DNA from: Tethya wilhelma
Lineage: Eukaryota > Porifera > Demospongiae > Tethyida > Tethyidae
Assembly: GCA_964030475.1 (NCBI GenBank)
Contig: CAXIPT010000009.1
Span: 1,250,444-1,314,443 of the forward strand
Reading direction: 5' to 3'
DNA: 64,000 bases
A program made the translations under genes and the position numbers. The notes under the pieces were generated by a model. That model saw nothing but the letters and a program-made list of their open reading frames with translations, was not told where the DNA came from and ran no database searches. Positions 28,295-62,734 of this stretch are shown piece after piece; position 1 is the first letter of the stretch, and the number at the start of each line of letters is the position of its first letter.

Positions 28295-28903
28295 TCAAAA
28301 TTTGAGACTAAATCCAGGTCCAGCACCTTCCTCACCAACCTACAGGAATACAATGAGTAGAACCCTCCAATTATCTCATGAGAATTCTCCATTTATCTGA
28401 AAGTAAAAATTTCCTTCTCAAAGGAGGTGCTGTACCTGTAGCTGGAAAGCTCCGCCCTCAGGGGGGGTTGGACTCTTAGCTCGTTTCTTTTTGGGATCCA
28501 TTTCACTTTTGGCTGGCCACGTGGGGAACATTGACGGGGGGACCATCAGGGGGGGCTCCTGTAATGATTAATTACAAGGGGGGAGGGGGATTTGATGAGA
28601 GAACACAAGATAGACATGTTACTTGCTTACCTTGAAGTAGGAGTGTTCTAGTGCATCTTTTGCTGAAATCCTCTTGTTTGGGTCGTACGTCAATAACCGG
28701 TTTAACAAGTCAAACCCGTTATTAGTAAGATAAGGAAACTTTTTACGCAGATGATTGTAAGGCTGTCGAGCAAACGTCACCTGTGCATAGAGCAGTGTGT
28801 TACCATGGATACCAGCAATATAGGTAGAGAATAGTTACCTTCTTAGCGATAGGCAAGTCACTGTAGCCTGGCCATATTTGGTCGTTGGGATTACCTAGCT
28901 CCT

Positions 28904-28962
<59 letters not shown>

Positions 28963-29734
28963 TGTGTGTGTATGTGTGCGTGCATGTGTGTGACTACATT
29001 GAAACCAGGTACCTTGAAAATCAGGTTAAGCTGGTCAATCTCCGACTTCCCTTGGAACAATGGTTTCTGGAGAATGAACTCGGCAAAGATGCACCCAACA
29101 GACCACATATCAACAGCTGTAGAATACTCCTGCATGCAACAATAACACAGTTACCATAGCAACAGTTTATGAATAGCTCTAATATTTGAGACCATCATCG
29201 TAAGTATTTGTTCAACATTCTTTGCAGATATCATTTTATTTGCAGAAAACTGCATAAATACATAATAATAACAATCGTACTTTGGTTCCTAGCAATAGCT
29301 CAGGGGCTCTATACCAGAGTGTAACGACCACAGGCGTGTATCTTTTCAGCGGTGAGCCATACTCTCTAGCCAGACCAAAATCTCCCACCTACAGACCAGG
29401 CGATCAAACACAGTTTGAGTTTCACTACAACCCACCTGTTGAAGGCTTACCTTGAGGATCCCCTTGTGACTGAGCAGTAGGTTGGAGGCCTTCAGGTCTC
29501 TGTGCAGTATCCAGTTGTCATGGAGATGATAGACTGCTCTCAGCAGCTGGAGGAGGAGTGTCTTCACCTCGCCTGGTAGAAATGGCTGCCTCATTGTCTC
29601 CATGAGTGCCTTCATATCGTGTTCCACGTAGTCCATCACAATGAAGATCTTGTCCATGTTGCTACCGACAACAATTTCCTATTAGAGAGCACCGTATGAG
29701 TTATGAAATAAATTCCTCTTGTGTGTGTGTGCAC

Positions 29735-29787
<53 letters not shown>

Positions 29788-29919
29788 GTGAACTCACTCT
29801 GACATGAACAATGTTGGGGTGCTTGGCTTTAAGCAGCATGTTGATCTCTCTCAGTGAGGTGATTGGAAATCCTTCTTTCTCTTTCTCCATTTTCAACTTC
29901 TTCAAAGCAACAACTTCAC
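28295..29919 (-). CDS. CDK11: cyclin-dependent kinase 11 (PITSLRE kinase), 5' part missing
   Basis: Minus-strand exons give most of a kinase domain. 29919 downward: [18 protein letters not shown] followed by [12 protein letters not shown] (the diagnostic PITSLRE helix, with the ATP-site Lys in VALKK). About 29680-29455: [17 protein letters not shown] and [13 protein letters not shown] (catalytic HRD). About 29385-29280: DFGLA with [10 protein letters not shown]. About 29128-29010: [19 protein letters not shown]. Then [18 protein letters not shown]. The last exon ends AGPGFSLKF, the typical CDK11 C-terminus, stop at 28295-28297. The kinase acts with cyclin L in transcription and splicing and in mitosis. 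The Gly-rich loop and N-terminal RE-rich region are not present upstream; the next upstream sequence is repetitive and ends in an N at 30683. Confidence 0.93.
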
Positions 29920-30682
29920 CTATTTGTTAAGAACACACAATCTCAAATTATACTAAAACCAAGTCACATTTTTTCTCTAAAACAGCAACAGCTAATCATT
30001 AAAAGCTAGTTCTTGCGTCATTAAGATCAGCATGAAGAGAGCTTTCTAAGGGTGTACTTGAAAAATAGAAAAGTTTATTTTCTGCAAAAAATCACACTTG
30101 TTCATGGTATCAAGAAAAAAATCTAGTGAAACACCACATCATTAGAAAAATCTCTTTGAGTTGATTCCAATGGCGCAAATCCCAGTTTTGTACGACCTTC
30201 CTAGGCTGAGATAATACTGGTTGTTTTTTCCCCACATAAATACACAGGTAAGGAATTTCCCAAACATTTAGGCATAGTTACGATCAAGATTATCTCAGGC
30301 TAGGAAGGTCGTACAACGATGGGACTTGCACCATTGTGATCAGCTCAAAAAAATCTTTCAAACAGTATAGTTTAATTGAAAAGTTGGAAAATGTCCATTT
30401 TTTGAAAAAAATCGCACTCTACCATGGGCTATAGTTCATGGTATCGAAGAAATTTGACAAATACAAATCTAGCCAAACACTACATCATTTGAAAGATCTC
30501 TTTGAGCCGATTGAAATGGCACAAGTCCCAGCTTTGTATGACTTTCCTAGGCTGAGATAATACTGGTTGTTTTTTCCTCATAAAATACACAGGTAAGGAT
30601 TTTCCCAAATCTTTAGGCATAGTTACGATCAAGATTATCTCCGCCCAGGAAGGTCGTACAAAGATGGGACTTGCACCATTGT
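29920..30682. repeat. two tandem copies of a dispersed about 340-bp repeat
   Basis: Two successive units (about 30000-30345 and 30345-30682) share CCTAGGCTGAGATAATACTGG, TTTAGGCATAGTTACGATCAAG and GGAAGGTCGTACAA in the same order. Inside each, TTCCTAGGCTGAGATAAT and ATTATCTCAGGCTAGGAA are inverted partners. A degenerate copy lies in a UBE2J2 intron (about 37745-38010). The second unit stops at the single N. Confidence 0.8.
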
Positions 30683-30683
30683 N
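30683..30683. other. single N, probable assembly join
   Basis: On the left, CDK11 lacks its 5' exons; on the right, a ciliary gene begins in mid-protein. The N ends a repeat copy, which is a typical place for a misjoin or an unsized gap. Confidence 0.7.
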
Positions 30684-30747
30684 GTAGGAAATTCCAAATC
30701 TTAGTTTAATCATCTTCCAATTCTGATAATCTGCTGCACATTGCGCG

Positions 30748-30786
<39 letters not shown>

Positions 30787-30815
30787 TTCTGTGGTGCTAG
30801 AGTATCAGTGTTCAG

Positions 30816-32490: not shown

Positions 32491-32527
<37 letters not shown>

Positions 32528-32699
32528 GGTCTTCTCTCTGGTGGAAGGCTTACACTAACTTGCTGTCGAATTATGAGAACAGTTGTTTTCAACTGAGTAT
32601 CCCATGCTTTGTTTCATCACTGGTGAATTCTAGTGAAACACTGACATACAGGTACCTACTTCAACTTACCATGAGATCCATTTTCACTATTCACCCCCT

Positions 32700-32733
<34 letters not shown>

Positions 32734-35089
32734 ATAGGCCAGAGGACACCCTGTATGTGTCCATCACTGCACCCTCGGTGAGACCAGGACTGATTGTCAC
32801 CTCCCACCATGGCTGCCCCACCATTGACCTGGGGAGGGTGGGCACTGGGGACTCCTCCATGGAGACTGTTACCCTCAGGAACATATCCAACCAACACCTC
32901 CAGGTACACACACTCACACACACACAACGTGTGCTACTGTATAGCGGGTATATTTGGCCAGGATTAAATTTGGCGAATTGGCGACTTATTCTGCAAATCG
33001 CCAAATTAAAATTGCCAAACAGTTTTATATGCACGCACACACATATAAACAATGCAGCGTGCAGAATTAAATTGCCAAATTTAAAATCGCCAATCATGCT
33101 AAAATGTAAATTCGCCAAATTTTAAACCCGCCAAATTTACCCACTGTATGGTACATACTTATTGCATTTGAGAACTTGGCAAAAATCATACACGGGCAAA
33201 CCTTCACATTAATTTGTAGCTTGTATTGCTGAGCTAAATACTTATGTTGTTTTATTCATGTCTTGTACTATATTATATATTACTATAGTTTGACTGTGAG
33301 ATTTTCTTTTGCTATATTTCTCTGCAGCTGCGTTCATCATTGCTGGATCCTCACGGTCCATTTGAGGTGCGAAATGCCCTGCGTGACTTGCCCCCTGGTG
33401 CTACTCACAACCTAGCCATCAAGTTCTCACCGGCCACAGGAGGGAGTGTGAGTGGAGCCACTGCATGTCATCTCAGACGACCAGGCCTAGCTCCACCGAT
33501 TGCATGCAGCCATTGAGCATGGGGGGGAGGAGAGATACAAAGTGTAGTTTGAGATGGAGAAGGCCTGGTTTATGGGACTGTGATGAGAGTGCTGCATTAG
33601 TCTAAGAGCTAGCTAGTACTGCTAAAGAGAGGGAGGAAAAAAACAGAACAAAAAAAATGTTTAATGTTTCTCTACAGTATTATGAGCCACTCAGGATCCA
33701 TTATGGCCACGCCTCCTCTCTTCATCTGACACTAAGGGGCGTGGCAGTGAAGCCCCAGGTGGGCCTCTCTCTAGAGGAGGGGAGTGGTGACCTCCGTCTC
33801 ATTGACATGGGTCATGTGATGGCAGGGGACACCGTCACTAGGACCCTCGTCTTGAAGAACACCTCCAGTCTCGATGTGAAGTTCAACATCACACTGGACA
33901 GTCTTACGACAAAGAGATCGGTAGATCAGAGAAATCAATTCAGTAAGTCGGTGTAACACGATGTTAATGCTTGTGTGATATCCTGACAAATTTTTGATTC
34001 ATTAATTTCTTCATTACAGGGGCTTCCAATCACAATGGTCAATCTCCGTTCTATTGTAAGCCACAGTGTGGAGTAATAGTGGGTGAAGCCAGCTGTGAAG
34101 TGGGTCTGTCCTTCTCTCCTGATCATCGCAGTCTCTTGTACTCTGACCTCTTATCAGTGGAACTAAATGGACAAGTAGGTTTGCGAATTTGTGCAAAAAA
34201 AAATCTACAAAATTAATGTAAAGTATATGATCTGTTTTGTGTGATCACATTCACATACACGTAGCCTGGCTACACTCTGCCAGTGTGTGGGAAGGCATGG
34301 TCCAACAACATGACATTGTATGTGTTGGACGAGGCACAACCAGAAAAGGAGGAGAACGAGGTTGATCTGTGCAGTCCGAGCATACAGCCAGACAGAATGG
34401 AGTCACTGAGTGCCGTGGTTCCTGTGTCTGACGGTCGGTCTGCACCCCCCACCCCTCTGGTGGTGCTGCTGGCCCACCATGTTGGTGGCAGCGAGGGGAG
34501 GGTGGGCAGTGGAGGAGGAAAGAAGGAGAGCAAAGCAGTGGCAGAGACAGAGAGGGTCACGAGAGAGATTGAAATAGGCTGTGTCAAATCAGCACTTGTG
34601 AAGAAGGTGGGCTTTCACAACTCTCCTACTTGTGCAGGCTATAATGAATCATACCTCTTGTTTGTGTACAGACAACAGGGGAGTATGTCATTGACCCTAT
34701 TTCACCTAGCAACCCTCATGGCAGACACTTCACCATTGACCCAATGAAGGTACATATGATAGTATATCCTCTTTACTGTGTGCTTGTTACCATGGCAACA
34801 CACATGTTTGCATGCCACTATACAGTGTAGTGTTGAAGCTGGTACCTCAAAGATTGTGAGCATTACTTTCCAGCCTCCTAAAGATGGCTGCAACAAACCC
34901 CTTGAAGCTGAAACCAATGTGAGTGTTACATCGATCTGTCATAAAAAAATTAATACAATTACTTGTATCTTCCTGCTAACATAGTTCAGCACTTGTATAT
35001 ATATATATAAATCTTATCTTTAGCTGACGCTGCGAGGGGACAGCACAGAGGTATACAGGCTACTGCTGAGAGGACTGGTGTGCGAATAA
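30816..35089 (+). CDS. CFAP74: ASH/MSP-repeat ciliary protein, CFAP74-like, 5' part missing
   Basis: First visible exon 30816-30955 (LDKDHIQEEALRVAKELL), then probably 31351-31388 (phase not resolved), then a Lys/Arg/Ser-rich exon at 32277-32457. Immunoglobulin-like ASH/MSP repeats follow: TIDLGRVGTGDSSMETVTLR (about 32820), LLDPHGPFEVRNALRDLPPG and HNLAIKFSPATGG (33328-33447), then DMGHVMAGDTVTRTLVLKNT (33678-33941), and further beta-rich exons. The end is RGLVCE with a stop at 35087-35089. The pattern of G.V..G....T...N.S strands followed by F.P is characteristic of HYDIN/CFAP74-type central-apparatus proteins. I favour CFAP74 because of order and length of the repeats and because human CFAP74 also neighbours CDK11; CFAP221 or another ASH protein is possible. 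Confidence 0.6.
31389..32276. other. large intron of the CFAP74-like gene
   Basis: Contains a potential long hairpin at about 31928-32002 (CCCACCTAC with GTAGGTGGG outside, TGTCAGTCA with TGACTGGCA inside) and a run of 22 T at 32102-32123. No exon is seen. Confidence 0.5.
32935..33153. mobile_element. TATAGCGGG-type MITE, about 219 bp
   Basis: Left end TACTGTATAGCGGGTA, right end TACCCACTGTATGGTA, inverted to each other. The interior has mirrored GCCAAATT/AATTTGGC tracts around a core ACATATAAACAATGCAGCG. It lies in an intron of the CFAP74-like gene. Confidence 0.8.
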
Positions 35090-35197: not shown

Positions 35198-36399
35198 TCA
35201 TTTCTTGCCAAACATCCTAAGTCCATCACTTCCTCGAATTCTGAAAGAGAAACAAAAGAATAATATTATTACAATTCTTATCATTTGATTTGTTCTATTT
35301 ATTGCCCACCCTTTCTTCAGTGGTTGTCGTGGTGCCACCAGCTGCCCACTGTGGTCCCTGACTCTCAGTTCATCTCCCTCATTAGCCGCCACCTTCAATG
35401 TCTGCCTGAGTTGCTTGGCCTCTGTGTCGTGTTTCTCTCTCTCCTTGCTTCCCTCTGACTTGAGCTGGTTGGCCCGACTCATCTCTTCCTCTATGGCTTG
35501 GAGAACAGACGTGCAGTTAGAACACCTGTGTGTGTGTGAATGGGGTGTGGTCATCATATCATGTGACATCACAGGGTAGATCATGTGAGCTCGTACCAAT
35601 CTTCCAGCTTGGTAACCATGCCGGCAATGGCCTCCGTCTTGATGTCCCTACCGATGAAACACTCCACCTCCAGTTGGGAGTTCTTTTGGTCTAGCTTAGC
35701 TTGCATAATCCCAGCATAGATCGCCTCTATCACCAAATCCTTTACAATTAATACAGAGAATATAAGTATAGAACTTTGGGACAAATAAACAGTCCGTGCT
35801 TTAATGTTGTAAGAAGTTATGACTGACAAACCTCTAATTCTCTCAGATCGCTGATATCCAGTTCTTGTTGTAGTGTGGAATAAGGAATGGTCTATGGCAC
35901 ATGTAAAGAGAGAAGGTCACACACATTGTTCCATGGAGGAACCAAAATGACCATACCAGCTAGTGATAATAGCCTGATAAATTGACTCACATGACATTTG
36001 GCGGCTAGTGACACAATCGTTAGATGTCTTAGTTTCGTAACCTGGGCTGGAGTGAGTGGGGGAAGTCCCTGCGATTTACCTAAGATAATAATTACATCAA
36101 ATATTAACAATTATTAATACATTATTTTATCAGATGTACTTACTTCTATAATCTCCATACGTTCCATAGGCAAACACCTCCAGCAATTGGACATACTTTG
36201 AGTCACTTCCACTCGCCAGTTCCTTCACACACTGGGTCTCAAGGAGTTCACTGAACACATACACCCCAGGAGCATCCAGAGCCTGCTTGATGAGCTCCAC
36301 GGCAGCTGGACCGTGAGCAGTCTTCGCCAGGAGGAGAAACTGCTCAATTTTGTGACAACCAATCAAAGATGGAGCTGTTACAGGCAGAGAATCATCCAT
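35198..36399 (-). CDS. COPS7: COP9 signalosome subunit 7
   Basis: Minus-strand gene of about seven exons. N-terminus [12 protein letters not shown], then [32 protein letters not shown] and [13 protein letters not shown] (PCI-domain helices), [40 protein letters not shown] with [11 protein letters not shown] (winged helix), then a C-terminal coiled coil ([15 protein letters not shown]) and the end GLRMFGKK with stop at 35198-35200. These are the conserved landmarks of CSN7A/B in order. The subunit is part of the complex that removes NEDD8 from cullins. It is divergent from UBE2J2. Confidence 0.95.
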
Positions 36400-36613
36400 A
36401 GCTAGCTACTGCACAGGGTTCTTAACTGTCACGTGACTAGTAGGTGGAGTCAAAGATTGCTGACTCAGCAACAATTTGGGCGTGATGACATCTTCAAGTT
36501 GAGAAGAAAAGCCGTTTATTTTCTACTTCCTTCGCTCCTAGTTTGTTCCAGAGGGAGAGTAGCTTGTTAGTAACGTTTATAGTGTAACTTATTTTATGTT
36601 TTGTTCGTGAATC
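36400..36613. promoter_or_regulatory. 214-bp bidirectional promoter of COPS7 and UBE2J2 with GTCACGTGAC
   Basis: At 36428-36437 lies the full palindrome GTCACGTGAC, the optimal CLEAR/TFEB/USF-type E-box. It is close to the COPS7 start. The UBE2J2 side is T-rich. Confidence 0.55.
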
Positions 36614-38311
36614 ATGGCTACTTTGATGGCTACCAAGAGATTGAAACAGGACTACATCCGTCTTCAGAGAGATCCTGTTCCTTACATTTCCGCCGCTCCT
36701 TTACCGTCCAATATACTAGAATGGTGAGCCATCAAACCAACTGTAAATCAGAAGCTAGTGTGCCATTATTCCATGTCCCATTCCAGGCACTATGTAGTCA
36801 AAGGACCGGAAGACACACCTTATTATGGTTAGTTATCAAATTAGTTGTAATATTATGTCAATTTACATCATTCATTCTGTCCATACAGGTGGCTATTACC
36901 ATGGCAAGCTGGTCTTTCCCAGGGACTACCCCTTCAAGCCTCCCAGAATCATGATGATCACGCCAAACGGACGATTCCAAACCCAATCCCGGCTCTGTCT
37001 CTCCATCAGTGATTTCCATCCCGATACCTGGAACCCGGCCTGGTCTGTTTCAACCATCCTCACTGGACTGCTCAGCTTCATGGTGAGTGCCACGTGGTTC
37101 ATCTCTAGTTCATCTCTGAAACGTAGTTGTAACTTGCATGTAACACAGTTGTAACACACACATGGATCACATTTAGCCTCGTACCCAGGCCACTCCCTCT
37201 TTTAGTGTTTCATGCGATTTTTAGCGTGAAACACTAAAAAGAGGGAGTGGCCTGGGTACGTGCCAATGAAGCAAATGTCACACGAACCATAAATAATGAT
37301 AGTTATAACATGCAACATTAATTTTTAGCTATAATATCCATGGTTACAACATGACACAGTTATAACTGACACACAACAGTTAACTCACACAGTTTCAATT
37401 CACACACAACACAGTTATAACTCAAACATGACACCATTAAAGTGTTAGTATCAACCAATCAATGTATGTGTCAATCAATATCACCCTCCCTCCCTACCTG
37501 CTGTAGGTTGAGAAGACGGCCACCCTGGGTAGCATTGAAACCACCACAGAGGTCAAGAGGGCACTGGCTGTGAAGAGCTGGGCCTTTAATCTCAAGAACC
37601 AGACATTTTGTCAACTCTTTCCAGATATCTGTCAAGTGAGCAAGAGATTTGATGTCTTTAGCTGCATGATTCACCCTAGCTCCCATAGGAATCTATATAC
37701 TGCTGCCGTTGTTTGGACAGTGTTTTTCACTGACTATAATTTATTATCTCGATCAGCTTAGGAAGGTCACTAAAAGCTGGGAATTGTGCCATTACGATCA
37801 GCTGTAGAGATTGCGTTATTTTGATGATGTTACAATTAATTTTGGAGGAAATTTGCACTTGATATATTATAGGCTATAGTTCATATAATTTTGAAGGATT
37901 CTGGCCAAAATAATAACATAAGATTAAACCATATGCATGTTTGAAAGGTCTCTTTGAGCTGATTGCAATGCATGGTGCAAGCTATAGTCCCAGCTTCTAA
38001 TTCAGATTCCCATACCATAGGAATGACATTATGAGATTATGACTTCATCAGCTTTCCTTTATGCTCTTCCTCTGTGTGTGTAGGAGATCAAAGAGAAGCA
38101 AGAAGCCTATGAAGAGTCCGAGTCATTGAAAGAACTCCGTAACCGTGGCAATGGTATTGTAGTATCTCGCGATAGGACTGCCGGTCACCATGGTTACTGT
38201 ACTGGTGTGTTTGCTAATGTTGTTCTGTTTCTCTGTGTGGCTCTGTTTGCCCTTCTTGTCCGATTCCTCATGGTCACCAGTAGTGGTTCACCGCAGGGGA
38301 GCAGCCACTGA
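36614..38311 (+). CDS. UBE2J2: ubiquitin-conjugating enzyme E2 J2 (ER tail-anchored)
   Basis: Five exons: 36614-36723, 36787-36827, 36889-37082, 37507-37635 and 38084-38311, all in phase. N-terminus [21 protein letters not shown]2 core with [32 protein letters not shown] (TPN instead of HPN, as in the UBE2J family) and the catalytic Cys in [13 protein letters not shown], then [11 protein letters not shown]. Near the C-terminus, [20 protein letters not shown] is a tail anchor. The enzyme charges ubiquitin for ER-associated degradation. The fourth intron carries a dispersed repeat, and the third a hairpin element. Confidence 0.96.
37181..37259. repeat. near-perfect hairpin (foldback) element
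   Basis: Arms GTACCCAGGCCACTCCCTCT and AGAGGGAGTGGCCTGGGTAC continue inward with TTTTAGTGTTTCA/TGAAACACTAAAA around a loop of about 14 bases. A half copy lies at about 51972-52025, and related ends (GCCTCGTACTCAGGCC) occur at about 57788-57875. Confidence 0.85.
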
Positions 38312-39735: not shown

Positions 39736-39784
<49 letters not shown>

Positions 39785-41696: not shown

Positions 41697-41746
<50 letters not shown>

Positions 41747-42560: not shown

Positions 42561-42650
<90 letters not shown>

Positions 42651-42966: not shown

Positions 42967-43057
<91 letters not shown>

Positions 43058-44530: not shown

Positions 44531-44575
<45 letters not shown>

Positions 44576-48621: not shown

Positions 48622-48657
<36 letters not shown>

Positions 48658-51600: not shown

Positions 51601-54600
51601 GGACCTATGAGCTGGAACTGGGTTTCTTCAAGACAAACAACCCCTATGGTAGTGGATACTGGCCAACAGTCACCATCACTGATAAATGCACAGTCACAGT
51701 AGAGTGAAGTCATGAAACAAGTACTTGGACTAAATTTGAAATGCCTAGGCCCTTTGTAATAAAAAAATTAATCATTTAGGCACTTAAAATACTGATTAGT
51801 GACTCTCTAGGTTTGTATACACTGTCAACATTTTGATTTAGGCTGATTACCAGAAATCCAACTTCAGCAGTGAAACTAGTAGTCAGATATGTTTTAGTTT
51901 GTAGGTAGTAAAACATCCAGGGTAAATGATACATGCATGATCGTCAGCCTAGCTTGCACTTAGTTCTTTACAGGTGATTTTTAGCATGAAACACTAAAAA
52001 GAGGGAGTGGCCTGGGTATGAGGCTACATGACCATAGAAAAGGAAGGACCAATAAACCTGCATTGATTACTGCAGGGTAACAATGAATGAATCGACTACT
52101 CCAAGAGAAAAGGACGAATCGGTCCATCAAACTATCAGTATATCATATACCTTGATGATACAACTTCCTGTGTGTCGTCAATGTCCATAGCCCCGCCCTC
52201 TCTCTATTAGGCTCCACCCACTCATAGAGCTGACTCAGCGCTACAGTCTCACAGTAGACTGGCAGCTCAGTGAGATGATGGAAGACATTCTGAGCTGAGA
52301 GCTGGTCTCCAGAGAGAGGCACCAACAGACCCACCAGGGAGGACAGGTCCAGAGGAAACCTCATCTCAGCCGATTCAAGCAACTGACCAAATCCTGTTTC
52401 TAGTCCCTGTTAGTCATGTGATATTCATGTGACTAGCAGGTGATCAAATTAATACTGGTCGATGTACATACCTCAGTCCAGAATTCCAACCTCAATCGAG
52501 GATGGGTCAGCATCTCAGTTGCCAAAGCAACCAGATCCTATAGAGTAAACCCCTATTCATTTATCAGATTGATCTATCTCACTAATAACTTACAGCTGGG
52601 TTGCCAAGCGACTCTTTACTGAATGATGTAATACACAGAGAGAGAAGGGTGTGGAGAATACACTTGCAAATGCTAGCCACTGGCTACAAGAAATGAGATT
52701 GACAGCAGCAAAGATATTTTACAAATGACTATACCTTGAGTCCTTCAAAGAATGGACTCCTCAAAATCTCCAGTAAATACTCAAACACGTCCGCTCTTAA
52801 CTCCTGTACGGATGCATGGAGGCAAAGATGATCGTTCTAGAATGAAGAACACCAGTGTTGTAAGACTACCTCAAAGTCAGTGGCCGACTGGGTGATGTGT
52901 TTGAATGCCATCCAGGCCAGCAGCACAGGACCATGGTACCTCATGTCACCCCATTTAGAGAGCACCACGGACAACTCCTGCAACAAGACAATAAGAACCA
53001 TTAGTACCTGACCATGCCAGTGTTAGAACAACCAGATGGTATGTAGCTAAATAAAATATGCCAGGATTGAGCAAAGAGAGAAACTGGCAGGGATTTGAAC
53101 AAACAATACTAGGGGAGGATTTTTTGTAGCTAGTGCACCTTGAAACTTGATTGGTGGCTACTGTGCAACAGAGGGTGGGACTCCAATCTAATGAAAGACA
53201 AGCAGATTTAAATTATGACATAATGATGATGTAATGCAGTATACTTCTCTGAGCTATCTTGATATTGCTCCACCCACTCCAGACACACCCCCTCCACCAG
53301 TATCAGGGAACACAAGTGCCTGGAATAATAGTGGATCGGTTATCATCATGGCAACACCAATATCAGCTGTTCCACATATACCATATAGCACAAAATTTGG
53401 CAGGTTTTAATATTGGCAAATTGGCAGTTTTGGTAAGGATTGACAATATTAAATCTACCAAATAGTCATTTTGCATAACACATACGGAATGCATGTATTG
53501 CTGCATACGCTACTGCCAAAATAAAATCTGCCAATCATGAAATTTTTGACAACCTGCCAAGTTTTATTCCCTCCAATACTTTGTGCTATAATGATATCAA
53601 ATGATCATCAATATTGATAGCTGCCACTCACCCGAGATGGGCCAGCAGTGGCTCTGCAGCTGGGACAAGGATCATCCGAGGGTGCTGCTTGCAACCAAAC
53701 CCTGTGCTCTGGAAGAGAGAGGCAGTCTTGAGCAGGTCAGGGGCCATGTGCTTGAAGTCCTTGTAGTAGAGGAGGGTTATCTCAAGGAGCTCAGTCTGTT
53801 CACGCAGGGTTTGGATCAACCAGGCAGCCTCTTCTTGTTGACCCTGTTGTGTTACACTGAGTAACACACTTAATATTATTAACGCAAGTGGCATACCTTT
53901 ACTGCACTGGGCATGTCAGATTCAACACACTCTTTGTATTGCCTCCATACCTACACACATTATAGCCATTAGCATATCAGTCAAGGTCAGACGTTAAGCT
54001 GCGTAACAAAACTAACGCTCTTTATCAGTGAAGTCTCATCCTTGTTGATCTCATTAATGCAGTCCTCATAGACTCTCTGAGAAAAAACACAAACACAAAT
54101 GATTTTAATACAGTAAAAATATTTCATAAAAATTTCCTATCAAAATTTAGCGAATAATGCCAATCAAAAATAATGTCCAGTAGCAAATCAGCACTCAAAA
54201 ATGCATCAAATTGAATAGACTACTGCTCTGCTACCAGTATATACTTACCCTGTATCTGTGCTCCGAGTCCTGCCAGTAACCAAGGAGATGTTTGAGACAC
54301 TTGAGGAGGCACAGCCTCTCGGAGTAGTAGTGCTGCCTCACCTGGGAGAGAAGAAGCTGCTGCTCCGTGTCGGAGGAGAGTCTCTGGCCGAGGGAAGAGA
54401 GAGAGCCCCTGTAGACACTGCCCAGGAAGGACTGGAACAGCTCCAGAGACTGCAACTGGTCCAAGTCCTGTGGATGGCACAAGACAATTGTTTTACATTA
54501 TATCATTATGATGTAAGAGTGGGGGTATTTCCCTCACCAAGTGTCGGCTAATGTTGATGATAAATCTCTTCCATGATTTTGACACGTCATTGGACGATTC

Positions 54601-55061
54601 AAGCTTCTTCAAAGAGGCCGAGCTAGAATACAAACCACATAATTAATAAAACATAAGTTAGCATGAACCAAACACGCATGCACCCTTTTACCTTGGCTTC
54701 TTGTAATAGGAGAGTCCATTCAACAGTCGCTTGGAGTACAAGTTCACTTCCTGCTTTATCAGCACCTTAATGATGCACAGTGAAAGGACATAGCTAATAA
54801 ATAATTTGTGTAAAAATCGTCTAGCTACATGCAAAGATTGTGCATCTAATGGTGTACACAGGATTTGTAATAGAAGTATCAAAATGGGTACTATGGTGAC
54901 TCACAGAGTCTCTGAGAGCTGAGTGACCGATGAGAATCTTCCACAAGTACTGGTTGGAGCTGTGGGGTAGGGAGTGAGACCATGGTGGTGGGCGTTAAAT
55001 AGAGTACTAAAATTTGTAGTAATATTTGCAGTAAGTATTGAGAAGCTGACCTTCCTTCCAT
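38450..55061 (-). CDS. NUP188: nucleoporin NUP188 (inner-ring scaffold of the nuclear pore)
   Basis: Long minus-strand gene. Start at 55061 (MEGS, joined to SNQYLWKILIGHSALRDS). The N-terminal alpha-solenoid exons include KRLLNGLSYYKKP, LLKCLKHLLGYWQDSEHRYR, LREQTELLEITLLYYKDFKH and VFHHLTELPVYCETVALSQL. After a 7.6 kb intron (about 52145-44525), it continues with LGRPGLTLPPGITGKE and SGWEVFVLETCRVLHC, CVVFVMKEMFPGSHNWRYRH, then solenoid exons to ISFTGVYQERLAQ and ILEGVLDLSEYPPLFTIS, ending ADSFVKQFFR with stop at 38450-38452. Order and content agree with animal NUP188 along the whole length. One coding stretch near 42500-43130 borders an N gap, so an exon may be missing. It is divergent from UBE4B. 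Confidence 0.92.
40283..40525. mobile_element. degenerate inverted-repeat element (TACGAAAA type)
   Basis: Contains GAAAATT...CCTGATCTA repeats facing each other and CATACGAAAA tracts similar to the element at 48102-48323. It is located in a NUP188 intron. Borders are uncertain. Confidence 0.4.
42244..42368. mobile_element. TATAGCGGG-type MITE, short version
   Basis: Left end TTACTGTATAGCGGGCAAATT and right end AATTTACCCGCTATATGGTAA are inverted to each other. The interior lacks the AACAATGCAGC core, so it is an internally deleted copy. It lies in a NUP188 intron. Confidence 0.8.
42562..43054. repeat. (GA)n microsatellite with a 316-base N gap
   Basis: GA runs at 42562-42650 and 42967-43054 flank Ns at 42651-42966. 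On the minus strand this is a CT tract directly in front of the NUP188 exon that begins GACACAGAGCTGAAGGTGGC. Confidence 0.95.
44799..45007. mobile_element. TATAGCGGG-type MITE (TTTTCG subfamily)
   Basis: Perfect ends TACCGTATAGCGGGAAATTT and AAATTTCCCGCTATACGGTA. Interior has GTGGGGGAAAATTTTT repeated and inverted. First element in the big NUP188 intron. Confidence 0.85.
45225..45292 (+). pseudogene. remnant of last exon of the secreted PKD-like gene family
   Basis: Carries CAACGGTCACCATCACTGAT followed by ACCGTCAGAATGGAGTGAAGTT, matching the C-terminal VTIT..VTVE-stop end of the three fuller copies. The 5' exons are missing, although upstream bases 45060-45200 resemble the family promoter. 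Confidence 0.7.
45330..45532. mobile_element. TATAGC-type MITE, divergent
   Basis: Begins TACTGTATAGCCAGAAAT and ends ATCGCTATATACAGTA, with inner ATTGATGG/CCATCAA tracts. It is a diverged member of the same family. Confidence 0.65.
45955..46148 (+). promoter_or_regulatory. conserved upstream block of the secreted gene array (copy 1)
   Basis: Shares CAATGTACGATGATGACAC, AAGCCATATAGTAGCT, GCAGCTATAAATTCACCAG (a TATA-like TATAAATT), CAGGACCAGTGACTGG and GGACCCAAGGGAAGAGGAAA with 48945-49107 and 49290-49493. TATAAATT lies about 140 bp before the ATG. Confidence 0.7.
46149..46973 (+). CDS. small secreted protein with six-Cys motif and PKD-like domain (copy 1)
   Basis: Nested in a NUP188 intron on the opposite strand. 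Exons 46149-46230, 46306-46492 and 46781-46973. Exon 1 is a signal peptide (MKTATPFVVYLTIAAATLWT). Exon 2 has six cysteines spaced C-x7-C-x23-C-x6-C-x-C-x8-C. Exon 3 has GWGDGS, EYQYDEPGTYTMELAFF and a final VTVE, which fits a PKD-type beta-sandwich (WGDGS, then Y..PGTYT). About 155 residues. Function unknown; a secreted adhesive or recognition protein is only a guess. Introns are short, phase 1 and phase 2. Confidence 0.75.
46540..46745. mobile_element. inverted-repeat element with TAGCTCC ends
   Basis: Left TAGCTCCAAAATTTTTGTGG, right CCACAAAAATATACGGAGCTA. It sits inside the second intron of the first secreted gene, so it was inserted after or during the growth of the array. Confidence 0.65.
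47583..47700 (+). pseudogene. second remnant of the secreted PKD-like family
   Basis: TATTGACCCACCAATATAG, then AAGTAGGGATCCACACAC and ATTTAAGACTCACAAAAGC correspond to the THQY.KAGTY..QLAIFKTH part of the copy at 49494-50193, with frame-breaking changes. It is a decayed last exon. Confidence 0.6.
48102..48323. mobile_element. TATAGCGGG-type MITE (TTTTCG subfamily), 222 bp
   Basis: Ends TTACTGTATAGCGGGAAAT and ATTTCCCACTATACGGTAA. Interior contains GCGGCGCGCGC and CATACGAAAA. It is in the NUP188 intron. Confidence 0.85.
48742..48910. mobile_element. TATAGCGGG-type MITE, divergent
   Basis: Contains TACTGTATATAACGAGTAAATT on the left, core ATATAAACAATGCAGCGCA, and GAAATTTACCTGCTATACGG on the right. 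Confidence 0.75.
48945..49108 (+). promoter_or_regulatory. secreted-array upstream block (copy 2), cut by an N
   Basis: Matches 45955-46120 and 49290-49450 but stops at CCAACCTAAACA followed by N at 49108. The following 180 bases are not the expected signal-peptide exon, and the whole block starts again at 49290. A gene copy may be missing here through an assembly join. Confidence 0.65.
49290..49493 (+). promoter_or_regulatory. secreted-array upstream block (copy 3)
   Basis: Same order of blocks as at 45955-46148, including GCAGCTATAAATTCACCAG, and leads directly to the ATG at 49494. Confidence 0.7.
49494..50193 (+). CDS. small secreted protein with six-Cys motif and PKD-like domain (copy 2)
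   Basis: Exons 49494-49569, 49658-49922 and 49989-50193. Signal peptide MKTATPFVVYLTIATATLWT. Exon 2 begins with a linker (KAETPKSEETTDP) absent from copy 1, then six Cys with the same spacing C-x7-C-x23-C-x6-C-x-C-x8-C. Exon 3 has MWGDGSDLSYSETTDRPGPY, HQYAKAGTYSIQLAIFKTH and ends VTVE. About 180 residues. All splice phases equal those of copy 1. Confidence 0.8.
50194..50990. other. degenerate spacer of the secreted array
   Basis: AT-rich sequence with decayed matches to the 3' flank of the other copies (AATCATTTA, CAAACCGTCA-like, GTGTCATGGTGATCA). No open gene is seen. Confidence 0.5.
50991..51707 (+). pseudogene. secreted Cys-motif/PKD-like gene (copy 3) without start codon
   Basis: Exon 1 remnant 50991-51048 begins in mid signal peptide (PFVVYLTIAAATLWTQVEGG); the ATG and five codons are absent, and the in-frame upstream sequence meets TAA at 50955 without an ATG. 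Exons 51140-51425 and 51503-51707 are fully open. The linker carries a short repeat (PKAEVPEPKAEAPK). The same six-Cys spacing is kept and exon 3 has VRWGDGSHYSNSDHTENPGP, HQYNKAGTYELELGFF and the VTVE end. The normal upstream block is missing. It is either a recent pseudogene or a gene that uses another first exon. Confidence 0.75.
53379..53591. mobile_element. MITE, TATAGCACAAAA variant
   Basis: Left ACCATATAGCACAAAATTTGGC, right ends TTTGTGCTATA, with inner CTGCCAAA/TTTGGCAG tracts. A sister of the element at 58796-58984. Lies in a NUP188 intron. Confidence 0.7.
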
Positions 55062-55248
55062 GTGGTCTGTGTACTTTGGTAGTAATGGGTGCCTAGTTAT
55101 CTCAGAGAAGTTCTAGCAAGCTACTAGCCTTTGAGGCACAGTGCAGTGGCGGGAAAATATTTCAAATCAGCTGTCTCTCTAATTAAGCGTGGCAAATTAG
55201 AGAAATTTTATAAATTGCTCCATATAAAGCGGTACCGGTGAAGGAGAA
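55062..55248. promoter_or_regulatory. 187-bp bidirectional promoter of NUP188 and UBE4B
   Basis: Lies between two divergent start codons. Contains GCGGTACCGGTGAAGG just before the UBE4B ATG and AT-rich sequence in the middle. No TATA box at a usual distance. Confidence 0.5.
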
Positions 55249-57523
55249 ATGAGTGAAGAAGCGTCTCCCAGCTCCCAGGAGCTCTCCGTGGACGAGGTAG
55301 GGAGGTGGTAATGAATGGTGAATGTGTTAAATACCCTCAAATGGGAAAATATGCCAACACTTGAACACAATTAGTGGAAGTAAAGATTAATTTTGTTCAA
55401 TGTACAGGCATGTACTTGCTTTTGCAGACAATTGGTAGTCTGTGTTCTGTGGTTCATCTGAATTTATTAACACTCTCAGTTTGTTTTGCCAATAGCTGTT
55501 TACCTGGAATGGTGTTTAGTGGTATAACATTCATTATACCTAACCATGGTTTGATGGTTTATCTCCATGTGCCTAGATTCGCAGACGCCGTCTTGAGAGG
55601 TTGGGGAACCTACCTATGAGGTCACAGACAGACCCCGTCAAAACCACACCCACTGACACACCCACCTCATTAAAGAATACTCCCTCGTCCAGTGTACCAG
55701 TTATCAGTGTTAACGATGGAGAGAGAGAGAAGGTGAGTTGACCATTACATCATCATTATATCAATGCCCCCCTATCTACTGTATGGTCCTTACAGAGTGT
55801 GCCCATGGAGGTGGACTCGCCCCGCGCTAGGCCTGACAGAATATCCCCTAAACCAGAAGCCAAACGCAAGCACCGTGGAGAATCCAAGGTGACCCCAGGA
55901 CAACTCCTCATTCAAGTCTTTAGAATACCAAATCACGTGAGTCATTATACAAGCTGGGCATGTGATAGTCATGTGATAGTCATGTGACAATCATGTGTTT
56001 CTCAGGAGGAACTAAACCACGTGGATCTGTCGGAGTCCAGTCTGGCCTCGCTAGCTCAGAGCTGTGACATCATTTCACAACTCCTAATGGAGAACATTAA
56101 CAAGATCATGTGCTCATCATGTGACAGCACTAGGATAGGAGCACATGACCCAGAAGAAATGGACAGTGGTGCGCCGCTGTCTTTGGGTGCTAGCCTGGAG
56201 AGTCCCCAGCCATCCAGTCTAGGGAGCCTCTCCCAACCCTTGTCTGTGGGAAGTGCCTCCGGTAGGAATAAAATTTTGAGTTTGAAACTTTTTTTTTTCA
56301 ATCTACCATCATCTTCTGTCACGGTATATATATTGATTGAAATATGAACATTCAAATACAGCTAGTGATTGTGAGTTTATTTAAATTTTGTGTTCCATTC
56401 TCAGGGGGTAGTGCTGGTCACACTCCTGTGGGGACCCCCTCTCTGCCCCCTCGATACTCCAACCAGCCTGGGAGCAGGGGGGCCATTGCCTACCTCCTGG
56501 ACTCCTACGAGAGAGCTACCTTAGAGGAACGTCACATCGGTAAACGAGGAGGGGCATCCCCTGAACAGAAGCCACTGCTGACAGCTGCAAAGGAGTGTTG
56601 TGTCTCTCACACTGCCCTCGTGCTGATGGACTACCTGGACCCTCCCCCCAGCACCACACCCCCGGCACAATCCTCGTGAGTTCACTAGCAAGGGAGGGGG
56701 GCTCACATGATACATGCTATTACCATGGAGTTAGGTTAATATTAGGTGGACTTTGCTATTAGCACACATTCACAATTAGGTACTGTATATACATACATGT
56801 ATTGTATAGCGGGTAAATTTTGCCGAGAATTAAATTTGGCAAATTATTCTTCAAATTGCCAAATCAAAAATTGCCAAATAGTTATATACACGTACAAATA
56901 ATGCAGCGTACAGAATTAATCGCCAAATTTAAATCACCAATGATGCTAAAATGGGAGTTCGCCAAATTTTAAGCCCACCAAATTTACCCGCTATACAGTA
57001 TTGTCTTCTTGTAATAACAATGTGTAAGTTCATGCTGGATGATTCACATGGCCAATAAGTGGATGTGCTAAAATAACTTGACTCTGTGTAACATATACTG
57101 AATTGTTCACGTGTTGGCTCCACCCACAGCCACACCCACTCATCCTCCCTGACTGAACACATTTTGAGCAATGCAAACAGACTACGCCCCCTTCCATCTG
57201 GTTTCCTTGGCAACCTCGTACTTCACTGTCACGGAGAAACAGATGAAGATGATGATGTAGTTAGAAAGGTATGACATCATTATTACATCATGCAATCTAT
57301 AACTCCTTCCTGGTCATACGCAGGTGTTCCAAAGTGTGGTGGCTGACCTGAGGGAGAGTGTTGGTCAGCTCTACATCCTTGATGACCACATCATGGACAG
57401 CTTCTTTGCTCTAGCTGAGCTCTGTGACCTTCGACCTGATGGCAGCAACACGAGACCTATTTGTAAAATGGTACATATTTCATCAATAATGTATGACAAT
57501 TGCTATTCTTGTTTTTATGTGTT

Positions 57524-57568
<45 letters not shown>

Positions 57569-60500
57569 GCTCACAGCTGACAACAAGTGGTTGCCTGGTG
57601 ACATGCCTGGTCGTAAGGCGATGTACGAGACTCTTCTTGGTCCATTTCTCTCTCTCTCTGGTCTGGTGGATGACAACTCAAAGCTCAAGGATCACTACTA
57701 CCAGGAGCAGTTTGACCAGCGGGCGGCCGACCTCACAGCCTCCACAATACAGCAGAGACTGAGCATCTCCAGAGTGAGTTATGGTTAGCCTCGTACTCAG
57801 GCCTACCTCATGTGGTTTGCTATCACAACTTTAAGAAATAAATGTGGAAGTACAAGGCCTGGGAACGAGGCAAAGTTGTGGTGAGGTTGAGTTGTGTTGG
57901 AAATTGTTGCTGCTTGTTATCTGTTTCAGAACGAGATGTTCAAGGTGGTCCACTGTTGTCTGCGAGGCTCTGACACTAGAGCAGCTGCTCTTGACTTCCT
58001 TCATCAGATGCTGGCTATCAATGTCAAGAAGAGCAGGATTCATGTGAGTGGAATAAATGGGTGTGAATCAGTTGCGTTAGTTTCATTAGCATTGATATTT
58101 CTGATGCAGGTTGATCCTAGAATATTTGCATCTGATGCGATGATGGGTAATCTGCTCTCAGTTTTTCTCAACTTGTGTGTTAAAATTAAATTAACATCGG
58201 TAAGTAAACATACACCTAACACATCTGACACATTTTTGATCTTAACACTACTAACACAGGTTGATCCTCTGTATCTTTTCAATCCCAACTCTCGTCTGTC
58301 CATTGAAAATGACACTCGACTTCATTTCTCCTCAAAAGACTGTGAAGAAAAACAAAAAAAGCTAAACGAACAGGGGCAGTTTGCTAATCCCCCTAAATTT
58401 CCAACTGAATGTTTCTTCCTGACTGCTCTCTGTGCTCATGTGACATGGACGTCCTTTAACAGACGATACAGATCATCAGTCTCGGACATCAAGTACTTCA
58501 AGAGCGCAGTGGCTGACCTGGAGGCTGCTGGTAAACCAGAGGCTGTGAGTGAGATCATGTGACTTTGTTTAGCAACCATGTGACTTTATAAAGTGATCAT
58601 GTGACTTGTATCTAATTATAGGTGGTGAAGAAATATCGTGATCGCTATGTGCAGTGTCAGAAGCGCTACTACAACACTCTAGGTGTGATTCTGGAGCCTG
58701 AACTGATCCAACAAACCATGAGGTTTTACTGCTCCCTGTCAGAATGGATCTGCATGCTAGTTGCAGGGAGTCATGGGTAAGGAATTGACCAAATTATTGT
58801 ATAGCACAAAATATTGGCTGAAGAAAATTCGGCAGATTGTCAAAAATTTCGTGATTGGTGGATATTATTTCCATGCAGCAATATGTGCATTCTGTGCAAA
58901 AATGACTGTTTCGCGGATTTAATATTCACAGTCCTTACCAAATCCGCCAATATTTAAATCCACCAAATTTTTGTGCTATATATACAAGTAGTCTGTTTTT
59001 GAAGTTCCCCTCTTCCACCCTTACACACACAGCCTCTCCCTTCCACTGCCTGATGAGATTCCCTTCCAATTTGCTGCTCTCCCTGAGTTCATCATTGATT
59101 CAATTACAGACTTTATCATTTTCTGCTCTCGGTAAGCACAGTGCACTAACACTCCCATAAATGACATCATAATGACATAATCTCGTGCCAGATTGAGTCC
59201 TCGCACTCTGGACGACCCTGGGTTTGTCCACGTGGTGACGTTGCTCCTCGTTCTCGTCTGTTCCCCTCGCTACGTCAAGAACCCCTACGTCCTCACCAAG
59301 GTGGTGGAGGTCCTCTTCATCATGACCCCCGGCATCCAGTCCCGGGAGCACCACATGATGGACATGTGGCTCTCCAACTCCCTCGCCACCGCACACCTCG
59401 CCAGGAGCTTGATGAAGATGTACATCAGTGAGTCTAACTATCATAGTTGGAGGGGGAGGACCAAAATTTTCAACAACCTACCGTGTAACGGGTAAATTTG
59501 GCGAATTGGCGAGTTATATTCTGCAAATTGCCAACCAGTTTTATATGCATGCACTTGCATATAAACAATGCAATGTGCAGAATTAAATCATCAAATTTAA
59601 AATCAACAATCATGCTAAAATGCGAATTTATACCAAATTTTAAGCCCGCCAAATTTACCCGCTATACAGTAGCAACCTGAATTGTTGAGTAGATAAACAA
59701 AGTTATATTCAATTTTTATACAAATCTTCTCATAAAGTTTCACAGTATGATATAATGTCCTTTACTGCCCAGGCTGTGAGGCAATGGGTGGTTCCAATGA
59801 GTTCTACGACAAGTTCAGTGTCCGCTACCACCTGTCTGTGATCATGAGTCAGCTGTGGGGTCACCCAGGTCACCATCAGGCCATCCTGGGGGAGAGCAGG
59901 GACTCACGAGACAATTCGGACTTTATAAGATTTGTCAACATGCTCATCAACGACACAACGTTCCTTCTGGATGAGTCGCTAGACGCCCTTAAGGCAATTC
60001 ACGACACCCAGGAAGCAATGAGGGACCGCTCTACGTGGGAGAGCCAACCCCCTGTAGGTTCTATATATATATATAGAACAAGTCTATTTATAGCCAATAT
60101 ACAATGATGTAACCTGTAGCACACACGTAAGTACTTGTATATTATCAATTGATAGTTGGAAAACACATTAAGGGAACTGTGTCACTACAAGCGCTGTTTT
60201 GTTACCAAAAGTAAAATGCATGACGTTTTGTGACTTTTTTGTTGAAAAACACGCAATACACGTACGTACCCAGAGCCAGTATTTAGTAATGTTCAAAGCA
60301 GCGCTTATATAGTGATGACACAGTTCCTTTCAATTCTTGTATATCAATTGATAGTTGGAAACACATTTAAAGAGATGGAAAGAAGTAAGTGCATGTTCTC
60401 TGTCTCTCCCCACAGGAGATGCGCCAGTCTCGGCTCCACCAGCTCTCGGAGGATGAGAGGCAGTGCAGGTCATACCTCACCCTGGCCACAGAGACGGTGG

Positions 60501-61574
60501 CTACCTTCCACTACCTCACCAGGGAGATCAAGGAGCCCTTCCTACGACCAGAGATGGCCACCAGAGTTGCCTCGATGCTCAATTTCAACCTGCAGCAGCT
60601 GTGTGGACCAAAGTGCAGAGATCTTAAAGTATGATGTCATAATTATTTAATTTCTATAAATGATGTCATAATGATGTAATACTATGATAGGTAAGGGACC
60701 CAGTGAAGTATGGGTTTGACCCCAAGGCACTGTTGGACAAGCTGACAGATATCTATCTTCATCTGAAGGGGGATGTGCTGGCCAGAGCTGTGGCCACGGA
60801 TGAACGCTCATATCGCAAGGAGCTCTTTGACACTTGCAAGAGACTGCTCTACAAGAATGGCATCAAAACACAGGTGGGTGTGGTCAGGGGTGTGGTCTGG
60901 TTCCTGGTTACTATGGCAGTGTGTTGTGTTGGCAGGAGAGTGTGTCTCAGTTCGAGGAGTTTGCCAGTCATGTTGCGAGTGAGGCCGTGGCATCGATGAA
61001 GGAGGACATCTCCTATGGGGATATACCGGAAGAGTTCAAAGGTAAGATTACTAGCTATTATTATTGTTACCTAGTGTATCTCACTAGTTTGGGAATTTTT
61101 GCTGAAATTTGCTGAGAACATTGATACTTGTTTCAGTATTACTGAATAGCAGGTAAATTTGGCAAGAATTTAATTTAACGAATTGGTTAAAATATCGCTA
61201 GACAGTTCTATACGCATGCGCAGGCATATAAACAATGCAGCATGCAGAAGTAAATTGCCAAATTATACTAAAATGCAAATTTGCCAAATTTCAATGCAAA
61301 AAATAAAAGTTGATTAGTACCAGTTCTCAATCTCGTAATTCTTGTGTTTCTTAATTGTCCATCCCCTGCAGACCCCCTGATGGACACCCTGATGTCTGAC
61401 CCTGTCCGTCTCCCCAGTGGCACGGTCATGGAGCGCTCCGTGATAGTCCGCCATCTTCTTAACACCAACCAGGACCCCTTCAACCGTCAGGAGCTCACTG
61501 TGGACATGCTGGTGCCTGACGTGGAGCTGAAGACCAAGATAGAAGAATGGAAGAGGAACAAACAGCCTCTCTAG
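55249..61574 (+). CDS. UBE4B: ubiquitin conjugation factor E4 B (U-box E3/E4)
   Basis: Start [16 protein letters not shown] (55249-55296), then [17 protein letters not shown]. Ser-rich linker exons follow, then [15 protein letters not shown], and the Ufd2P core: [92 protein letters not shown] and [19 protein letters not shown]. The C-terminal U-box in the last exon (61371-61574) reads [20 protein letters not shown], ending KRNKQPL. It elongates ubiquitin chains and works with Cdc48/p97. The gene is complete and all domains are in normal order. Several introns carry MITEs. Confidence 0.96.
56800..57001. mobile_element. TATAGCGGG-type MITE in UBE4B intron
   Basis: Ends TATTGTATAGCGGGTAAATT and AATTTACCCGCTATACAGTA, core AATAATGCAGCGTACAGAATTAA. 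Confidence 0.85.
58796..58984. mobile_element. MITE, TATAGCACAAAA variant, in UBE4B intron
   Basis: Left ATTGTATAGCACAAAATATTGG, right CCACCAAATTTTTGTGCTATAT. Sister of 53379-53591. Confidence 0.75.
59479..59671. mobile_element. TATAGCGGG-type MITE in UBE4B intron
   Basis: Ends TACCGTGTAACGGGTAAATT and AATTTACCCGCTATACAGTA, core ATATAAACAATGCAATGTGC. Confidence 0.85.
61139..61292. mobile_element. TATAGCGGG-type MITE, right end lost
   Basis: Begins TTACTGAATAGCAGGTAAATT, keeps the core ATATAAACAATGCAGCATGC, and stops after TTTGCCAAATTTC without the terminal ACCCGCTATA. Just before the last UBE4B exon. Confidence 0.7.
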
Positions 61575-61680
61575 TTCCACTTGTCATGCATGTACATATG
61601 GCTGCATGTCTAGCTGGATAGGGAAATTCAATGATCAGTTCTAATAATAGCTTATCGTCTATGTCTCTATGCAGGATTTG

Positions 61681-61692
61681 TGCGCATGCGCA
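61681..61692. promoter_or_regulatory. NRF1-type palindrome TGCGCATGCGCA
   Basis: Perfect match to the consensus of the NRF1 family (YGCGCAYGCGCR). It sits in the only GC-rich patch of the area (61680-61770), about 100 bp after the UBE4B stop and upstream of the next plus-strand gene, so it probably marks that gene's promoter. Confidence 0.6.
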
Positions 61693-62238
61693 GTAAAGCG
61701 GGCTTGCTATGCGGCGGATGGGCGGAGAGGGGGGAGGAGAAATAGGAGGAGAGGCCCGCGCGAAACTAGCGCTCCCATTGGTCGGAAATACTCATTACGA
61801 CATTCCATGGTTTTAATTAGGCTAGGCACTTACCCAAAGAGGGAATCCTTGTTCATTTGAGACGTTCGGCGCACAGACTTGTTTGAAAATCTCTGCCAGG
61901 AGCTCTCCAGAATATCCCCCTTCCAGACAACAACCAAATCTCCCCTTCTTTGCCACTGGGAAGAGTTGGCAGCCGATCAGAGCGTGTGATTTGAGCCGTG
62001 CCAGGTTTGTTCGCTAACTGTAAGAACTGGGAACACGTTTTATGGGCGATCTCCTGGAAGATCGGACTGGGCTTGTAGATTCTTGTGTGCTGCAGATGTT
62101 ATGTGAGTGTGTGTGTGATAAACTGTAATTTCACAAAGTGTCTTTTATTTATTCTCTGCAGACTGTCTAAGATCTTGTCCCATCTGAAGTAGCTAAAGGA
62201 GATCTGCCATTTTGTTTTCAAAGAAAATAGAGAGAGAG

Positions 62239-62326
62239 ATGCCGAGAAGATATCTTAGTGTTCGTGATCCTTGTGTCAACTACGAGAGGCTGGAGTTGGC
62301 TCTGGAGCAGGACATTGAAGGACCCA
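62239..62326 (+). CDS. first coding exon of an unidentified gene (partial)
   Basis: After a splice acceptor-like TTATTCTCTGCAG (about 62160) comes a short leader with an in-frame stop, then ATG: MPRRYLSVRDPCVNYERLEL and ALEQDIEGP, with donor CCCA|GTAAGT at 62326. GC-rich promoter upstream at 61681. I do not recognise the family. No following exon is visible before the N at 62575. Confidence 0.45.
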
Positions 62327-62517
62327 GTAAGTCGTGTGTGTATGTGTGTGTGTGTGGGTTCAGCCATATTGTGTGCTGGTGTCTGTAATCAGGAGCCTAA
62401 TCAACATTCTTGGGTGTAGTATGTAATTAATTAGAGGTTGAGGTCTCGTTAGCAACTCTGATTGCATTCTTTTGAGTCAATTTGAGCAGGTTATCCTACA
62501 CCCAGGTGGTCATCAGT

Positions 62518-62519
<2 letters not shown>

Positions 62520-62574
<55 letters not shown>

Positions 62575-62575
62575 N
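62520..62575. repeat. (CT)n microsatellite ending in a single N
   Basis: Pure CT for about 54 bases, then N at 62575. An assembly join is likely because a plus-strand gene (left) and a minus-strand CENP-S exon (right) are both incomplete here. Confidence 0.85.
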
Positions 62576-62693
62576 TCCTTCTCTCTCTGCCTTCAGCTTG
62601 TCAGCATGATCAGCGATGAACTCGGCTAGAGAGGGACTTCTTCTGGAGCATAACTTCACATCTTCCATTGACACTGTTGTCCTCTTGGCATGC
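62576..62693 (-). CDS. CENPS: centromere protein S (MHF1/APITD1) exon, partial
   Basis: Minus-strand exon after acceptor TTGTAG (about 62694). It encodes HAKRTTVSMEDVKLCSRRSP followed by SLAEFIADHADKLKA. This is the last helix of the CENP-S histone fold (RH..RTT...EDVKLL.RRS.SL). CENP-S pairs with CENP-X in the kinetochore CENP-T-W-S-X tetramer and with FANCM in DNA repair. Upstream exons would lie at higher coordinates but are not found before the window end; the downstream end is cut by the N. Confidence 0.75.
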
Positions 62694-62734
62694 CTACAAG
62701 AGAGAGAGAAATGAGACTAGAAATAGGGCTAGGG

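Follow-up and report, generated by a model that had tools for sequence, protein, structure and literature searches.

Orthologous genes that stay on one chromosome in sponges, cnidarians and bilaterians, without keeping their order, form established linkage groups (the BCnS ancestral linkage groups, ALGs), which the available text of Schultz et al. (2023; PMC10232365, citing Simakov et al., 2022) describes for Ephydatia and a cladorhizid demosponge. The statistics of some of these groups, chiefly in comparisons with unicellular outgroups, are debated (PMC12728501, in the portion available). Here we analyse a window of 64,000 nucleotides (C9:1250444-1314443) from contig CAXIPT010000009.1 of the demosponge Tethya wilhelma; this contig, hereafter C9, has 4,822,599 bases (3.87% of the assembly's bases). 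An earlier note on this DNA had read the genes of one interval (window 28295..62693) as the equivalent of human 1p36, linked since early animals. We find that the grouping of 1p36 genes in this interval is more than chance, and we consider it highly probable that the interval is a slice of a conserved but order-scrambled ancestral animal linkage group, of which human 1p36 is another descendant.

Gene identities and the excess of 1p36 genes

The earlier note had placed CDK11, CFAP74, UBE2J2, UBE4B and CENP-S together in the interval, and each is best matched by its named gene at the level of the subfamily. CDK11 kinase-domain exons were found in open reading frames at 28619..29926 (minus strand); one of them (29349-29678, minus strand) matched CDK11B with an E value of 7.5e-40 in a comparison with PDB sequences, with CDK9 second at 1.5e-13. 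The Ig/ASH-domain exons of a CFAP74 orthologue (32637..34984, plus strand) were joined by hand into a 398-residue model, which matched CFAP74 at 2.2e-35 and FAP74 at 5.8e-22, with HYDIN (7.4e-11) and FAP65 far behind. Taken singly, one of its exons gave the CFAP74 domain below the cut-off and two others gave no match; one CFAP74 exon compared with PDB gave none either. For the UBE2J2 orthologue (36798..38311, plus strand), whose C-terminal exons were recognised by eye, the exon at 36798-37151 (plus strand) matched PDB UBE2J2 at 5.3e-38, followed by molecules named E2 6 at 7.9e-34 and by the remaining E2s at 5e-8 or worse.

The UBE4B orthologue (55742..61574, plus strand) carries Ufd2P_core (93.2 bits) and U-box (89.8 bits) in Pfam, and its U-box exon (61314-61571, plus strand) matched PDB E4B better than E4A (1.6e-25 vs 8.7e-18). 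Among the best 120 of its 1747 homologues, the functional names are E4 B or UBE4B, and the closest named match listed is from Halichondria panicea (Suberitida; 71% over 65% of the query). A megablast of the UBE4B exons against a phage collection gave no match and is uninformative. CENP-S (CENPS/APITD1) was identified from its C-terminal exon alone (62516..62716, minus strand), by Pfam (31.5 bits, cut-off 28) and PDB (4.3e-8).

Two genes absent from the earlier list sit amid these five. COPS7 (35198..36405, minus strand) matched PDB CSN7A at 3e-11 in its exon at 35584-35916, with a PCI domain under the Pfam cut-off. NUP188 (38450..55112, minus strand) matched PDB NUP188 at 4e-7 at 41072-41599 and Nup188_N at 0.0065, under the family cut-off, at its far end (54234-54497); its other exons were recognised by eye. 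Most human positions used in this study are general background: we take CDK11A/B, CFAP74 and UBE2J2 to lie in 1p36.33, whereas COPS7A (12p13.31), COPS7B (2q37.1) and NUP188 (9q34) presumably lie outside 1p36. UBE4B and CENPS are genes of 1p36.22. In all, 1p36 accounts for five of the seven genes named in the interval (binomial P ~5e-7, assuming by our own estimate that 1p36 holds 3% of human genes), which bears out the view that their grouping is not accidental, although this P value and those of the wider survey below carry no correction for the choice of interval and band.

We also read exons across 100 kb on each side of the window, giving a survey of 264 kb, and gave twenty of the flank exons to Pfam. 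Twelve of the 33 assignable genes have human homes in 1p36 (P ~1e-10 at the 3% share): PEX14, WRAP73, DDI2, PRXL2B, LZIC, CDK11, CFAP74, UBE2J2, UBE4B, CENPS, PGD and MFN2. Three of these, WRAP73, PRXL2B and the mitofusin (MFN2 being one of its two co-orthologues), owe their names just to reading by eye or to a generic domain; 11 of the 33 are left if the mitofusin is not counted (P ~2e-9), and nine of the 33 if WRAP73 and PRXL2B are not counted either (P ~4e-7). Human 1p36 here stands in for a published linkage group. Protein kinases, Wnt-like, IRF-like, leucine-rich-repeat and LARP7-like genes, an RNF213-like duplicated gene, a SAND-SAM protein, PKD-like copies, the CIDE-N gene discussed below and unnamed reading frames were excluded before counting, some for want of a clear one-to-one counterpart in human and others because they were unidentified, and the pair of TPP1-like genes was entered as a single gene.

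The flank identities vary in their basis. Pfam families over their cut-offs include Pex14_N, Ddi2_HDD, SCO1, 6PGD, DUF2452, SRPRB, eIF-5a, DNA_pol_phi, Rpb4, GATase and zf-UBP. An AhpC-TSA_2 match was read by eye as PRXL2B and a Dynamin_N match as the mitofusin; WRAP73 (WD40), PUS3 (PseudoU_synth_1), GMPS (GATase), PEX5 (TPR), USP5/13 (zf-UBP) and COPB2 (COPA/B propeller, below cut-off) likewise combine reading by eye with a generic or weak family. PSMC2, ESF1, CDKAL1, PPP1R7 and TPP1 were named by eye from unscanned exons, and ARMC9 was named by eye with an Arm repeat below the cut-off. No Pfam family was found in the LZIC and C3orf33 exons, two of the twenty scanned; C3orf33 was named by eye, while the identity of LZIC rests on 894 homologues, the closest named among the matches listed being from Suberites domuncula (Suberitida, 82%). 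The reading frame assigned to SNX25 had 76 protein matches, one of them named Em0008g1032a, with the coral Acropora lower down; we take the prefix of that name to be Ephydatia-style. Together with the closest named LZIC and UBE4B matches, this places the sponge, by its proteins, probably within Suberitida or close to it.

A scaffold that joins unrelated pieces could give a false impression of linkage. The interval does contain one long run of Ns (316 bases, 42651-42966; three single Ns occur besides), and near-identical local duplications lie nearby. However, the run falls inside NUP188, and because NUP188-like sequence continues on both sides of it, a misjoin there, which the earlier note had named as a way in which its proposal could fail, is unlikely. 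Nor would a misjoin be expected to unite genes whose linkage recurs in other animals, as described below. We therefore reject an assembly artefact as highly improbable.

Marker families and linkage in other animals

Seven further 1p36 marker families were chosen before their places in the assembly (124.6 Mb, 204 contigs) were known. Across the assembly, MTHFR, SSU72, NOC2L and CAPZB matched on C9 only, and DIX matched on C1, C2 and C9. By eye, the DIX gene on C9 was recognised as Dishevelled, whose human counterpart DVL1 is, we assume, a 1p36 gene. Five of the six locatable families match on C9, with a P of 5e-7 given its share of the bases, or four of six (P 3e-5) if Dishevelled is set aside.

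LZIC and UBE4B, which share C9 in the sponge, could also be followed into other animals. Their linkage was read from the sizes of the longest contigs bearing each protein cluster, using the best 120 of 894 LZIC homologues and the best 120 of UBE4B. Among these matches ten species were comparable (an eleventh shared species, Pristiophorus japonicus, lacks a contig size and is left out of the count), and in six of them the two contigs are of equal size and in all likelihood the same: Glandiceps talaboti, Ptychodera flava, Gigantopelta aegis, Callorhinchus milii, Scyliorhinus canicula and the stony coral Oculina patagonica. Besides the coral, Glandiceps and Ptychodera are hemichordates, Gigantopelta is a mollusc, and Callorhinchus and Scyliorhinus are cartilaginous fishes. 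For this pair, then, one-chromosome linkage is found in a sponge, a cnidarian and bilaterians, and the sharing with cnidarians that the earlier note had proposed to look for is seen at chromosome level in one coral. Together with the markers on C9, this supports linkage since early animals, as had been claimed.

Several observations weigh against a shared ancestral linkage group. Of the 33 genes, 21 are not 1p36 genes, and the names of many flank genes come from reading by eye or from a generic domain. KIF1B, the remaining locatable marker family, matched on C3 only and not on C9, although the human gene sits between UBE4B and PGD (PMC2360241, in its available part). The marker P values use the base share of C9 in place of its gene share, and all marker matches on C9 lie at 0.33-1.45 Mb, the part of the contig for which the signal is shown; in four 10 kb samples taken from C9 at 1.8-4.2 Mb, no conserved single-copy gene was recognisable by eye. 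In four of the ten species the contigs that carry LZIC and UBE4B differ in size; they are chromosome-size in Pinctada imbricata and Liolophura sinensis and short scaffolds in Limulus and Lingula. Finally, DFF40, the seventh marker family and one that bears on the CIDE-N gene discussed below, had no match anywhere in the assembly, in a search that lacked a positive control and is uninformative; DFF-C was not searched for in the genome.

The simplest objection is that, through chance or the bias of the reader, common families were given the names of human genes whose place in 1p36 is coincidental. This band is gene-rich, most of the human positions are general background, several flank genes owe their names to reading by eye, and the interval was selected as interesting. 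Yet CDK11, UBE2J2, UBE4B, CENP-S and CFAP74 match at the level of the subfamily, independent markers match on C9 in five of six cases, and LZIC and UBE4B are linked in most of the species compared. For these reasons we reject coincidence, which we consider hardly credible, in favour of a conserved linkage group. The part of C9 beyond 1.5 Mb may differ in character; by eye, the four samples (L031-L034) contain cadherin-like, tyrosinase-like, kinase-like and fibronectin-type-III-like exons.

Gene order, tightness and the CIDE-N gene

We compared the sponge order of 11 of the twelve 1p36 genes (the mitofusin was omitted) with the human order. The order is scrambled, as in a BCnS-type group: Spearman's coefficient is -0.14, and a test of adjacent ranks gives a P of 0.30. 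The claim that the neighbourhood equals 1p36 is therefore too narrow and is not retained in that form. Its core, the shared linkage, stands, but the group is larger, its order is lost, and it includes genes from other human regions.

It is also conceivable that something tighter than chromosome membership was kept, the human LZIC-PEX14 run having stayed within a quarter of a megabase, perhaps with regulation tying its genes together. In the region of human chromosome 1 at 7.77-11.02 Mb, this run reads LZIC, NMNAT1, RBP7, UBE4B, KIF1B, PGD, APITD1 (CENPS), CORT, DFFA and PEX14, an order taken from the available text of PMC2360241. Five of the ten (LZIC, UBE4B, PGD, CENPS and PEX14) lie within ~246 kb of C9, and the assembly's single CIDE-N match falls inside the same span. 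For the five genes, with the CIDE-N gene omitted, such a span has a P of 2e-5 over the whole of C9 and of 0.003 over its first 1.5 Mb, although both values are optimistic, as the genes were picked after they had been seen. The order of the 1p36 genes is random, KIF1B is on another contig, the presence of DFFA is unproven, and the search did not extend to NMNAT1, RBP7 or CORT. Because of the post hoc choice and the displaced KIF1B, we regard a kept neighbourhood as possible but unlikely, and conserved membership of a scrambled group remains the preferred reading.

The CIDE-N-domain gene (20529..23734, plus strand) has the domain at its start, followed by long reading frames; that all this is a single gene is our interpretation. 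As reported in the earlier note, a CIDE-N domain is present at 20.7 kb (31.9 bits, cut-off 23.5 in Pfam), and this locus is the only match in the whole assembly. In 2008, a survey that covered the data then available for the demosponge Reniera detected no CIDE-N there and predicted that one would exist (PMC2426694, in the part available), which gives the gene some interest of its own. Comparison with solved structures gave weak matches, to ICAD (E 0.16, and 0.4 in another comparison), DFF45 (0.27) and CIDE-B (0.87), and lower down to a protein of the cell surface that is unrelated (1.3) and to one named "DNAation factor-related protein 3" (1.4). The gene thus resembles DFFA and DFFB in its N-terminal CIDE-N domain and, weakly, in its best structural match to ICAD; it is unlike them in its two long downstream reading frames (21044-22198 and 22784-23734), which had no Pfam match at E 0.05.

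From its sequence, the gene is possibly a relative of DFFA/DFFB, and its location near PEX14, CENPS and UBE4B fits DFFA. The link to this pair in the earlier note holds as far as the domain goes; the kinship itself is unproven, and given the long frames without another recognised domain and the unmatched DFF40, we did not adopt the name DFFA. That the whole neighbourhood of ~250 kb (LZIC, UBE4B, PGD, CENPS, PEX14 and the CIDE-N gene) was kept since before the sponges split off, with the CIDE-N gene as a diverged DFFA counterpart known by its position, is doubtful, and more so than a tight neighbourhood by itself.

Several other features of the region are of note. Within the window, positions 2448-2747 and 4181-4480 are 100% alike over 300 nucleotides (spacing 1733), and 300-nucleotide pieces of 14810-16575 and 17064-18831 are 95-100% alike (spacing ~2255); these near-identical copies are recent tandem duplications or uncollapsed haplotypes. 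Two intronless TPP1-like sedolisin genes in divergent orientation (24363-25979, minus strand; 26529-28154, plus strand) were recognised by eye. So was a PKD-like domain in a small gene (45034-51735, plus strand) that is present as several diverged copies in tandem, seemingly nested in an intron of ~7.5 kb of the opposite-strand NUP188. Three Wnt-like exons, also seen by eye, lie close together in the left flank (L012:4666-9053, L013:5475-5981). Other flank exons are repeated, PSMC2-like at L015:885-6347, SAND-SAM/PEX5-like at L023:655-3784 and COPB2-like from L025:9908 to L026:1417, which would reflect local duplication or haplotype redundancy. Pieces L020 to L022 (~175-195 kb from C9:1150444) hold a long degenerate repeat, whose open frames encode runs like EPFPIKTIGEPKNLFPSKLLENPRTFSHQNYWRTQ.

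Proposed descent of the linkage group and described systems

How such a gene set could persist while its order was lost may be explained by two unequal rates. The interval would be part of a sponge chromosome that descends from one ancestral animal linkage group, with human 1p36 as another descendant. If inversions within chromosomes are frequent, they would scramble gene order; if translocations between chromosomes are seldom fixed, the gene set would stay together, and the set would therefore be kept and its order lost. Such persistence would not require the cluster to function as a unit. In vertebrates the group would later have been duplicated and thinned, which would split the sponge set over 1p36 and other regions, presumably 3q, 12p13, 17p13 and perhaps 2q37.

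The human regions 1p36, 3q, 12p13 and 17p13 are paralogous through the vertebrate whole-genome duplications. The sponge locus resembles this pattern, as ten of the 21 genes outside 1p36 (SRPRB, EIF5A, MYBBP1A, SCO1, COPS7A, GMPS, PEX5, C3orf33, USP5 and COPB2) lie, by their presumed human positions and in a grouping noticed post hoc, on 3q, 12p13 or 17p13. Our literature searches found no paper on the 1p36/12p13/17p13 paralogy and none on UBE4B-PEX14-DFFA or UBE4B-LZIC-CENPS synteny; the available part of PMC7269912 does not mention 1p36.

Conserved metazoan microsynteny, reportedly documented by Irimia et al. in 2012, also keeps non-homologous genes close together over long times. The sponge locus is unlike it in that order is lost, and just a loose LZIC-PEX14 cluster is suggested. 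The closest counterpart is the BCnS ALGs, in which orthologues stay on one chromosome in sponges, cnidarians and bilaterians whatever their order. The present case differs in being a 264 kb slice from a Suberitida-like demosponge, to which no group letter is assigned. It is not a new kind of conservation but a sponge instance of a known rule, by which sets of genes have shared an animal chromosome, in scrambled order, for more than half a billion years.

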